IMG/VR virus record: IMGVR_UViG_3300025853_000601
Location: 1-25,054 of that record
DNA from: a virus
Reading direction: 5' to 3' (one strand)
Length of the DNA stretch: 25,054 nt
In this document: piece after piece, positions 10,269-16,485 of the stretch
Numbering within the stretch: position 1 is the first letter of the stretch
Layout: every line of letters begins with the position of its first letter
Notes under the pieces: generated by a model
Seen by the model: the letters and a program-made list of their open reading frames with translations, nothing else
Database searches by the model: none
What the model was told of the DNA's origin: nothing
Translations under genes and position numbers: made by a program

Positions 10269-10485
10269 GTATAATTTTCTTTAATCCCTGATGACTTAAT
10301 CGTCTACCTGTTTTATGTTCTAACCATGCAGAGCCTTCACGAAGACTTAATACTTGGTCTTTAACTAAAACAGATATTTCCTCTAATGCTTCAAGTTGTG
10401 CTGAAACCTCTTCAAGCATTTTAGGATTATCTTTAGATATAACATATCCAAAGGGTATTACACTGCTACGCTTCGGAATGCTCAA
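10249..10485 (-). CDS. Small HTH-like protein beside terminase (78 aa)
   Basis: The protein begins RSSVIPFGYVISKDNP, then a helical middle (MLEEVSAQLEALEEI), and ends SLREGSAWLEHKTGRRLSHQGLKKII. That end reads as a helix-turn-helix: a SLRE helix, a turn at TGR, and a recognition-like helix. Proteins of this layout are common next to terminase genes in marine phages; I recall no experimentally proven function. It overlaps TerS by 20 bases and TerL by 20 bases, so it is translated in step with both. A role in recognising a packaging site with or beside TerS is plausible but inferred. Confidence 0.7.
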   Translation of the reverse strand: MSIPKRSSVIPFGYVISKDNPKMLEEVSAQLEALEEISVLVKDQVLSLREGSAWLEHKTGRRLSHQGLKKIIHERLGS

Positions 10486-10849
10486 TTATAACTTCCTCTT
10501 TAGCAGGTAATATAAAAACACCACCTTGAACTGTATGGTTAACATCTAACCTGTCCGATTTACCTAGTCCAATCCGATCTAATATTGTTTGTGCTGCTTG
10601 AAGTCGGATATTGGCTTGAGGAATTGGCTGGTCAGAGTTCATAACCTCAGTAAGCTTTAGTGCAGCTTGCGGAGCAGATTGCGCTAGGATATTTGACGCT
10701 AGGTCTATTATTTCATTTTTGAGTGACTTGGTAACCTGCCAATGATTCCCAGAATAACCTGCAAGTTCGGCTGCTTTCTTTGGATCACCTCCTACTTCCA
10801 TAAGATGGCCTAGAAAGTTCTTTTGTTTCTCTGTTAATTCCTTTTTCAT
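10466..10849 (-). CDS. Terminase small subunit
   Basis: From the ATG at 10849 the protein is 127 aa: LTEKQKNFLGHLMEVGGDPKKAAELAGYSG is the N-terminal helix-turn-helix typical of small terminases. It is followed by a helical oligomerisation region (LASNILAQSAPQAALKL) and a beta-rich C-terminus (GGVFILPAKEEVIIE). It recognises the packaging site and stimulates TerL. An in-frame ATG at 10885 would add 12 residues, but it lies in the -35 box of the promoter and upstream of the predicted transcription start, so it cannot be used from that promoter. The chosen ATG is only zero to two bases from the predicted transcription start and lacks a Shine-Dalgarno, so the mRNA is probably leaderless. Confidence 0.85.
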   Translation of the reverse strand: MKKELTEKQKNFLGHLMEVGGDPKKAAELAGYSGNHWQVTKSLKNEIIDLASNILAQSAPQAALKLTEVMNSDQPIPQANIRLQAAQTILDRIGLGKSDRLDVNHTVQGGVFILPAKEEVIIEHSEA

Positions 10850-10856
10850 ATAAAAC

Positions 10857-10885
10857 AGTATAGGGTTAGATTTAGCATTTGTCAA
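10857..10885 (-). promoter_or_regulatory. Strong sigma70 promoter for the virion operon
   Basis: Minus strand: -35 TTGACA (10885-10880), a 17-bp spacer, then -10 TATACT (10862-10857). The expected start is at 10851-10849, right at the TerS ATG. It is the only strong promoter seen upstream of the whole structural arm. Confidence 0.88.
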
Positions 10886-10897
10886 CTACTTTTTAAC

Positions 10898-10926
10898 TTG
10901 ACAAATGCTAAATCTGAGGCTATACT
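10898..10926 (+). promoter_or_regulatory. Strong sigma70 promoter for the early/replication arm
   Basis: Plus strand: -35 TTGACA (10898-10903), a 17-bp spacer, -10 TATACT (10921-10926). The predicted start is near 10933, leaving a long leader of about 650 bases before the first gene with a good ribosome site at 11589. Confidence 0.88.
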
Positions 10927-10973
10927 AATTATGTAACCCACCGGGGTTGCATATAGATATATAGGTAACTATA

Positions 10974-11007
10974 AAGCCCTGCCAAAGTACTTTTAAGCCC
11001 TGCCAAA
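10974..11007 (+). repeat. Two 13-bp direct repeats, 21 bp apart
   Basis: AAGCCCTGCCAAA occurs at 10974-10986 and 10995-11007. The 21-bp period equals two helical turns, so both copies face the same side of the DNA, as expected for paired protein sites. They lie about 50 bp downstream of the plus promoter. Confidence 0.8.
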
Positions 11008-11144
11008 ACACTCTTTAGAGTCCCACCTAAAATAGGGGTAGATAGCCAAACCCTAGTTGACACTTCAAAGTTTCGTAAAATGTTTGAGATTTAGTATATA
11101 TATACGGGTGGGGGTATGGGCACCTGCCCGCCCCTCAGTAATAC

Positions 11145-11382
11145 TCCAGAATACTTCAAAGATTACTAAGTGTACATTCCAGAGTACTCTAAAGTATTCC
11201 CAAAGGGAAACTCCAGAGTAGTTTACATTCCAAAGAGGACTGTGAAGAGACAGTAAAGTAAACTTTTACTCCAGAAAACTACAAAGGATTTCAAAGAGTT
11301 AACTAGTTTTCACGAAGCAAGCCCAGCGATCCCAGCAGATCATCCCAAGTATCCCTAAGGATACTCCCTCCAAAACTCCAGA
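11145..11382 (+). repeat. Dispersed TCCAGA-centred degenerate repeats
   Basis: TCCAGA occurs at 11145, 11178, 11212, 11270 and 11377. It is usually preceded by ACT or AT and followed by (G/A)TACT-like bases and AAAG. The first three are 33 and 34 bp apart, close to three helical turns. Lone TTCCAAAG or TTCAAAG variants lie between them. Confidence 0.55.
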
Positions 11383-11588: not shown

Positions 11589-12059
11589 ATGAATAATTTC
11601 GCAAACATCGACGCAAATCGTCCTGCCACTTTCAAGCAGTTTGAGTTCGCAGTTTACAAAGTAACTCAAGGGGTGGCGAAGACTCGCAAGATCAGTGAGA
11701 AAAAAGCGGGTAAGTTAAACCCAGAGTTTAAGATTCTGAAAGCCCGTGTGTCTGCCGCCACTGCGAAATACTACGGCGACCAAGGTCAGCGGATGTCCCA
11801 CGGCGATGCTCAGAAGTTTATCACTACCGGCGAACTTCCGAAGGAAATCCTTGAGCTAGTTCAGACTGGCAGCGTCGAAAAGCCGAAGGCTTCACCCAAG
11901 CCAAAGGCTCCCAAGAAAACTGCGGAGCAGGAAGAACTTGAGCGACTTCGCAAGGAAGTTCAAGCTTTGCTTGCAGAGCGTGACGCTAAGTCCCAGTCTA
12001 AGCCTAGAAAGCCTACGGCTAAGGAAGCTGCTGCCGCAATCGCTGCCCTACGCAGTTAA
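11589..12059 (+). CDS. Early basic Lys/Ala-rich protein (156 aa), unknown function
   Basis: This is the first gene after the plus promoter, with a strong AGGAG ribosome site. The N-terminal 95 residues look folded (FKQFEFAVYKVTQGVAKTRK, then FKILKARVSAATAKYYG). Residues 98-110 are Pro/Lys-rich (EKPKASPKPKAPKK), followed by a charged helix (EELERLRKEVQALLAERD) and a basic, Ala-rich end. The tail looks like a nucleic-acid-binding linker plus coiled coil. I do not recognise a family. Codon use is richer in C/G third positions than in neighbouring genes, which suggests very high expression or recent acquisition. Being first in line, and followed at once by a terminator, it is probably an abundant early protein, perhaps a DNA-binding or host-takeover factor; that is inference. 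Confidence 0.85.
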   Translation: MNNFANIDANRPATFKQFEFAVYKVTQGVAKTRKISEKKAGKLNPEFKILKARVSAATAKYYGDQGQRMSHGDAQKFITTGELPKEILELVQTGSVEKPKASPKPKAPKKTAEQEELERLRKEVQALLAERDAKSQSKPRKPTAKEAAAAIAALRS

Positions 12060-12068
12060 AATTATCAC

Positions 12069-12090
12069 GCCCCTCTTCGGAGGGGCTTTT
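12069..12090 (+). terminator. Intrinsic terminator after the first early gene
   Basis: GCCCCTC (12069-12075) and GAGGGGC (12080-12086) form a perfect 7-bp stem on a UUCG loop, followed by TTTT. It lies ten bases after the stop, so the 156-aa gene forms its own short transcript with partial readthrough. Confidence 0.88.
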
Positions 12091-12101: not shown

Positions 12102-12191
12102 ATGAATTTTATTTTTTTAAGTTTTATTGTTTTTTTTACTTGGGCAGTTCTGCTGGCCCCAGTGTTAATTAATCTAACCGTACACGTTTAA
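12102..12191 (+). CDS. Single-span membrane micro-protein (29 aa)
   Basis: AGGAG lies five to six bases before the ATG. The peptide, MNFIFLSFIVFFTWAVLLAP followed by nine residues, is almost wholly hydrophobic (one Trp, no charged residue, one His near the end) and would make one transmembrane helix. Its stop lies nine bases before the next ATG, with that gene's own ribosome site between. The frame sits right after the terminator, so it would be expressed by readthrough. Function is unknown; small phage membrane peptides can act in superinfection exclusion, membrane anchoring or lysis control, but nothing here chooses among these. Confidence 0.65.
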   Translation: MNFIFLSFIVFFTWAVLLAPVLINLTVHV

Positions 12192-15810: not shown

Positions 15811-16268
15811 ACATATTTTATATTGATACTTGCCCTGTCAAGGCTGCACAAATGCAGTGTGATAAACATGTAGTTAAAATGATTTTAGAATCTGCACAAA
15901 TGCTCTGTGCTGCACACCATGTTGAGGGTGACGGTAATGTACCTTACAAGCTGGCCCATAAAAATCATCCCAGCACTGTTTGGACTCGCACTAACAAGAA
16001 ACATTATCAGTGGCTCTGGGATCACATGATAGCCTTGGGTGAGGAATACACTAGCCGCTATGGTAAGGTACATATGACCATTACTAAGTGCGCCGAAGCT
16101 CTCAAGAATCCTCCTGAAGCTGTGCCAGATATTGAATGGACTGATCCACCACAGTGTATGCCTGATGAGTGTAAGCGAGAGACTTCACTGGCTGGGTACA
16201 CTGAGTATTATTTTAATTACAAACCAAAAGTTATAGACATGCGTTGGATGGGAGTTAAGTATGAGTGA
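15807..16268 (+). CDS. Conserved phage protein with CDKHVVKM motif (153 aa)
   Basis: The protein starts MNIFYIDTCPVKAAQMQCDK, then HVVKMILESAQMLCAAHH, HPSTVWTRTNKKHYQWLW, and ends with KPKVIDMRWMGVKYE. Full-length proteins of this pattern (FYLD..P..AA...CDKHVVKM, and W...NY.WL) are frequent in marine and T4-like phages. I recall them as a conserved family without a firmly proven activity. Conserved Cys18-Asp-Lys-His21, His38/His39 and several Trp and Arg residues suggest an enzyme or nucleic-acid-binding site. AAGGA is seven bases before the ATG, which overlaps the upstream stop (ATGA). A role in DNA repair or modification would be a guess. Confidence 0.75.
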   Translation: MNIFYIDTCPVKAAQMQCDKHVVKMILESAQMLCAAHHVEGDGNVPYKLAHKNHPSTVWTRTNKKHYQWLWDHMIALGEEYTSRYGKVHMTITKCAEALKNPPEAVPDIEWTDPPQCMPDECKRETSLAGYTEYYFNYKPKVIDMRWMGVKYE

Positions 16269-16485
16269 TATATTTTATAGATCTCTTAAAGATTATCACA
16301 ACGCTCTAGATAAAATGTATTCCAAACGAAACTGGCCCAGCGGCGCAAGATCAGAACCCGCACCACACATAGTTGAAATTATAAAACTGTATCGAAGGGG
16401 CTTTACGAATGCCCAAATCTCTGCTAAGGTGGATAAACCACGCAGGATGGTAAAAGAAATTATTAGAAGGTCTGGGTGTAGATAG
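16261..16485 (+). CDS. Small helix-turn-helix DNA-binding protein (74 aa)
   Basis: Residues about 36-70 read as a resolvase/homeodomain-like helix-turn-helix: HIVEIIKLYRRGFTNAQISA, then KVDKPRRMVKEIIRRSG, with the turn at RGFTNAQISAKV. The N-terminal half is short and basic (KMYSKRNWPSGARSEP). It could regulate phage transcription or recruit replication proteins. It is the only clear HTH protein of the right arm and thus a candidate to act on the inverted-repeat promoters at 10857-10926; that link is speculative. It overlaps the stop of the CDKHVVKM gene. Confidence 0.75.
   Translation: MSDIFYRSLKDYHNALDKMYSKRNWPSGARSEPAPHIVEIIKLYRRGFTNAQISAKVDKPRRMVKEIIRRSGCR

Follow-up and report, generated by a model that had tools for sequence, protein, structure and literature searches.

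A conserved divergent pair of host-type promoters between the packaging and replication genes of HTVC103P-type ocean phages

How a phage with two near-consensus promoters standing back to back could keep its early and late genes apart is the question raised by positions 10857-10926 of the DNA analysed here, a stretch of 25,054 nucleotides from IMG/VR record IMGVR_UViG_3300025853_000601 that we refer to as the window. At this site two divergent TTGACA-17-TATACT promoters face each other with their -35 ends, each matching the sigma70 consensus at 11 of 12 positions. An earlier note had described them as one near-perfect inverted repeat, and had proposed that a protein bound at its centre, a cruciform, or separate means of early/late control might be involved.

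The promoter pair and its genomic setting

The site and the gene that adjoins it on the late side are composed as follows.

10466..10849, minus strand: terS (small terminase), with its ATG at 10849, 7 nt after the -10 box
10857..10885, minus strand: sigma70-type promoter of the late side (TTGACA-17-TATACT), directed at terS and the packaging/structural operon
10886..10897, no strand: 12-bp centre between the -35 boxes, CTACTTTTTAAC
10898..10926, plus strand: sigma70-type promoter of the early side (TTGACA-17-TATACT), directed at the replication genes by way of a long leader

The repeat as first described, with its hexamers, 17-bp spacers, 18 identical bases and 12-bp centre, was exact in every element, and the mirroring goes further than had been noted, as 26 of the 29 positions agree between the arms, 18 of these contiguously. 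It is the strongest inverted repeat of the whole window, and its longest perfect stem of 18 bp compares with a maximum of 14 bp in 200 Markov shuffles, which excludes a chance origin. Folded as single-stranded DNA, the site has a z-score of -8.6 that none of 200 shuffles equalled. The predicted divergent start sites lie ~82 bp apart, and a search of E. coli genomes for similar DNA gave no match.

Both promoters face their operons, in agreement with the earlier assignment of structural and replication arms to the pair. The minus-strand genes to the left encode TerS, TerL, and portal-like and capsid-like proteins, and primase/helicase and DNA polymerase are among those on the plus strand to the right; the pair thus appears to launch packaging/structural genes in one direction and replication genes in the other. 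The TerL of the window is closest to those of the Pelagibacter phages HTVC115P, HTVC103P and HTVC104P (65-66% identity, against ~45-50% to HMO-2011 types), and its TerS is 54-58% identical to those of HTVC103P/104P/115P. Packaging and morphogenesis genes are HMO-2011-like and nearest to HTVC103P/104P/115P, and terS heads a minus-strand packaging operon that points away from the replication module, both as in the HTVC103P type. In HMO-2011-type phages (CRP-1, 2, 3, 9, 207, 345, 603, 738 and HMO-2011), by contrast, terS is embedded in a minus-strand gene run, whereas here it begins at the divergent promoter pair. Some isolates of the HTVC103P type have SAR11 as hosts, the bacteria that are most abundant in the ocean. 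Judged by its genes, the window phage is of the HTVC103P type of PMC8528129 or of the more distant 'group IV', and its G+C content of 40.6%, outside the range given there for 'group III' (30.8-34.0%) and inside that for 'group IV' (31.9-44.4%), is the better fit to the latter.

Conservation of the pair among relatives

Relatives were gathered from IMG/VR via TerS, and the region upstream of terS was scored for divergent promoters; a terS was taken as clearly related at a score of at least 130 bits. The pair was present at 321 of 351 loci when duplicate contigs were included and at 171 of 197 after deduplication, with the caveat that a promoter-consensus filter was used in scoring the loci and inflates the apparent conservation of the hexamers. 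Among unique relatives with clearly related terS, 164 of 165 carry a divergent pair with a centre of at most 60 bp, and the remaining one keeps both promoters around a wider centre of ~115 bp. Upstream of terS in L019/L023 we observed an insertion, with the hairpin CCGAACA...TGTTCGG in L019, that leaves the promoters ~115 bp apart and both arms in place.

The isolates HTVC103P, 104P, 115P and 033P likewise have near-consensus divergent promoters upstream of terS. All 21 long relatives (~44-53 kb) contain the pair, and in 11 of them it is the sole match to TTGACA-N16-18-TATA(A/C)T, a pattern beyond which weaker promoters may exist elsewhere in these genomes. Its presence in every close relative examined, in the isolates and in every long relative marks the pair as a lineage-wide hub, and as judged by sequence pattern the near-perfect host-type promoters of this ocean phage family lie almost all at one divergent spot. 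The centres are A+T-rich (79% across clusters) and range from 7 to 58 bp, with ~115 bp in one lineage and no fixed phasing.

Origin of the mirror symmetry

The earlier note had suggested comparing related genomes for symmetry outside the promoter boxes, and had taken a missing repeat there as a refutation. This applies to the repeat beyond the hexamers, which is not conserved, but not to the promoter pair, which such genomes share; conservation covers CTTGACAAA and the -10 but does not extend to the mirror symmetry. Strong symmetry beyond the hexamers is missing from most relatives. Asymmetries by single substitution are common within the window's subgroup, as in L336, L332 and L012, and are tolerated even in the closest relatives. 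The symmetry that exists is nevertheless real. Across 51 clusters, the spacers of one locus match each other at 7.4 of 16 positions against 6.1 between loci (permutation p 0.0002), and they do so in register only; pairing the arms of different relatives gave no run of 12 spacer matches, and a run of 9 in 0.04% of the pairs. In the window's subgroup, the arms have changed together: 57% of mirrored double differences agree between them when compared in register, and 2-32% at other offsets. No correlation between symmetry and centre length was found, either among the relatives or among unrelated phages of the same promoter geometry. The symmetry is in part the promoter consensus that both arms share and in part the concerted change seen within one subgroup, and is probably not a conserved operator.

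Divergent promoters of the same -35/-35 geometry, some with mirrored spacers, are also found in unrelated phage contigs such as L438; these differ from the present family in having no HTVC103P-type terS. A smaller in-register excess of spacer matches was measured in 64 such unrelated phages. In L438 (8540-8920) we observed a perfect 29-bp promoter palindrome amid numerous DnaA-box-like TGTGGATAA repeats, in what looks like an origin of replication.

Several causes of the symmetry can be weighed against these data. One phage or host regulator might bind or bridge the identical -35/spacer half-sites of the two promoters, repressing or activating both arms at once; the 18-bp identity of the half-sites, the matched changes within the subgroup and a weak HTH_23-like protein match in the early region (16261-16485) would all suit such twin operators. 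The 14-base half-site, however, has no copy elsewhere in the window at up to 1 mismatch, and its matches at up to 3 mismatches (9, against a mean of 5) are near chance; the unphased centres, the single asymmetric substitutions in relatives L336, L332 and L012 and the lack of extended symmetry in most of the family also count against this explanation, which we consider unlikely. A fixed-geometry central operator was tried as a general rule and rejected in view of the variable centre length and spacer sequence. The proposal of one protein at the centre is not supported as a conserved mechanism: the centres vary in length without phasing, spacer symmetry is modest overall and the window has no further copy of the half-site, so that a protein clamped on the centre is unlikely. 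An inverted repeat kept for its DNA structure, as a cruciform or single-strand hairpin that might, for instance, signal replication or packaging, would accord with the strong single-strand fold (z -8.6), with the position of the site beside terS and an array of short dyads described below, and with the L438 palindrome among DnaA-box-like repeats. This is very improbable all the same, as the extended stem is not kept in most relatives, including HTVC103P/104P/115P, while the promoters are; the suggested cruciform is likewise not supported as a conserved mechanism, since asymmetries are tolerated and the arms of most relatives are not strongly symmetric outside the hexamers.

The symmetry may instead be mutational, with DNA polymerase repeatedly switching templates and copying one inverted arm into the other, and no selection for symmetry being involved. 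Template switching can homogenise the arms of inverted repeats (PMC8604942, PMC8794818), and the perfecting of imperfect inverted repeats by arm copying (PMC7202029, PMC8604942, PMC8794818) resembles what is seen here; the abstracts of these papers draw no tie to phage promoter pairs, and at the window pair the mechanism is a candidate. Matched changes confined to the in-register comparison, a symmetry that is sporadic and eroding, and the weaker excess in unrelated phages, the L438 palindrome included, all argue for it. Against it, no inverted centre, the other footprint expected, was noticed by eye among close relatives, and shared promoter preference and base composition could explain part of the excess; because symmetry does not track centre length, whereas template switching would be expected to favour short centres, this mechanism is unproven. 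We regard it as the simplest cause of concerted arm change and as a serious candidate, if one at somewhat below even odds, and it is compatible with a promoter hub as the explanation of what the site does. The spacer identity in the window phage is best read as two inverted arms changing in concert within one subgroup, whether by mutation or through a shared local preference; the mirror symmetry is real yet drifting and sporadic, and is unlikely to be a conserved protein-binding site.

Transcript features and early/late separation

On the late side, the distance from the -10 box to the terS ATG is 6-11 nt in 46 of 51 clusters, and differences in the length of the TerS N-terminus do not alter it. 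With the ATG so near the -10, a ribosome site would not fit in between, and the terS mRNA is therefore predicted to be leaderless or nearly so, and in the window too the message appears leaderless. The early side is organised differently, with the following features.

10933..10950, plus strand: 5'-terminal hairpin of the early transcript, GTAACCC-ACCG-GGGTTGC, from the predicted +1
10968..11297, plus strand: about 15 copies of a degenerate 10-bp dyad, ACTYYRRAGT, in the noncoding leader, spaced mainly by multiples of ~10 bp
11057..11127, plus strand: leader block CTAGTTGACACT...TATATATATA...CACCTGC, strongly conserved and almost without variation within the window's subgroup
11589..12059, plus strand: ORF1, the first early gene, 156 aa, lysine-rich, with a helical model
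12069..12090, plus strand: intrinsic terminator, GCCCCTCTTCGGAGGGGC-TTTT, 9 nt past the ORF1 stop

Along 45 diverse leaders, folding energy is unusual only in the interval that starts 2-4 nt past the -10 (mean z ~-2.1, against ~-0.2 elsewhere). Covariation of the hairpin stem on the sequence alignment was not significant, with 53.7% of cells paired, the same as in shuffles, so the case for the hairpin is one of folding energy only. A noncoding leader of ~500-700 nt separates this hairpin from ORF1, and Rfam gave no credible match to a known RNA family within it. The TTGACA of the conserved leader block has no -10 at promoter spacing downstream. ACTYYRRAGT dyads are about five times commoner in the window's leader than expected (~15 against 3), and are shared with many relatives whose leaders otherwise differ, though absent from HTVC103P/115P/033P. 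Their helical phasing is clear in the window's subgroup and in pooled leaders (p 0.001); the 10.5-bp signal was not found in single leaders of other subgroups (L031, L029, L051, L146, L151). The array could possibly be a replication origin or a nucleoprotein array.

ORF1, whose lysine-rich helical protein family stands at the head of the early operon, is preceded by a clear ribosome site, and its AlphaFold model is helical with a pLDDT of 78. It was considered as a known regulator and rejected as such, having no Pfam or PHROG family above the cut-off and no PDB fold match. A hairpin with T-run stands ~7-16 nt past the ORF1 stop in about a dozen relatives, most of those checked; no such terminator was detected in L062, L075, L066, L064, L146 or L151, nor directly after ORF1 in L002. 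No near-consensus promoter was found behind the 12069-12090 terminator, an arrangement suggesting that the early operon is controlled by attenuation or antitermination. Past the terminator, 12102-12191 encodes a tiny predicted membrane peptide (29 aa), and similar short peptides occur in L007 and L022. The suggestion that early and late output may be separated by other means is supported to the extent that candidate features lie downstream, in the leader, the 5' hairpin and the terminator after the first early gene.

Our preferred explanation, to which we give a probability of about 0.72, is that the site is the main entry point for host RNA polymerase in HTVC103P-type phages, a divergent near-consensus pair with the early/late split made after initiation. 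Host RNA polymerase holoenzyme would initiate at both arms as soon as infection begins, and would transcribe the replication side (plus strand) and the packaging/structural side (minus strand) with similar intrinsic strength. If initiation is symmetric in this way, the separation of early from late output has to come later, and probably does; the plus side would rely on its stable 5' hairpin, long leader, strong ribosome site and terminator after ORF1, and the minus side on its predicted leaderless terS message. Two polymerases probably also hinder each other at gaps so short. A broader proposal, in which the whole lineage is run from essentially one symmetric bidirectional host-type promoter with arms evolving in concert, and timing is set post-initiation by a leaderless late message on one side and, on the other, by a leader capped with a hairpin, gated by a terminator and carrying a phased dyad array, is tentative and on balance doubtful.

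Known systems offer partial parallels to the promoter hub. Bidirectional E. coli promoters, in which 10, 18 or 23 bp mostly separate the start sites and the -10 elements lie close together, also combine symmetric DNA with divergent sigma70 transcription and competing orientations (PMC12825309). The window pair is unlike them in that its -35 boxes face each other and its predicted starts are far more widely separated. The A2b/A2c-A3 region of phi29 is similar in that it too is a short stretch, in a podovirus-like phage, with divergent early and late promoters. The phi29 A3 promoter lacks a good -35 and needs protein p4 for activation, whereas both arms of the window pair are near consensus.

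No account of transcription control in HTVC103P-type phages was found in the literature searched, and a single conserved promoter hub would offer a concrete, testable entry to the timing of their early and late operons. With more than 100 natural promoter pairs whose centres span 7-58 bp, the family also provides a series in which to study how back-to-back polymerases compete, together with an example of two inverted promoters that change in step.
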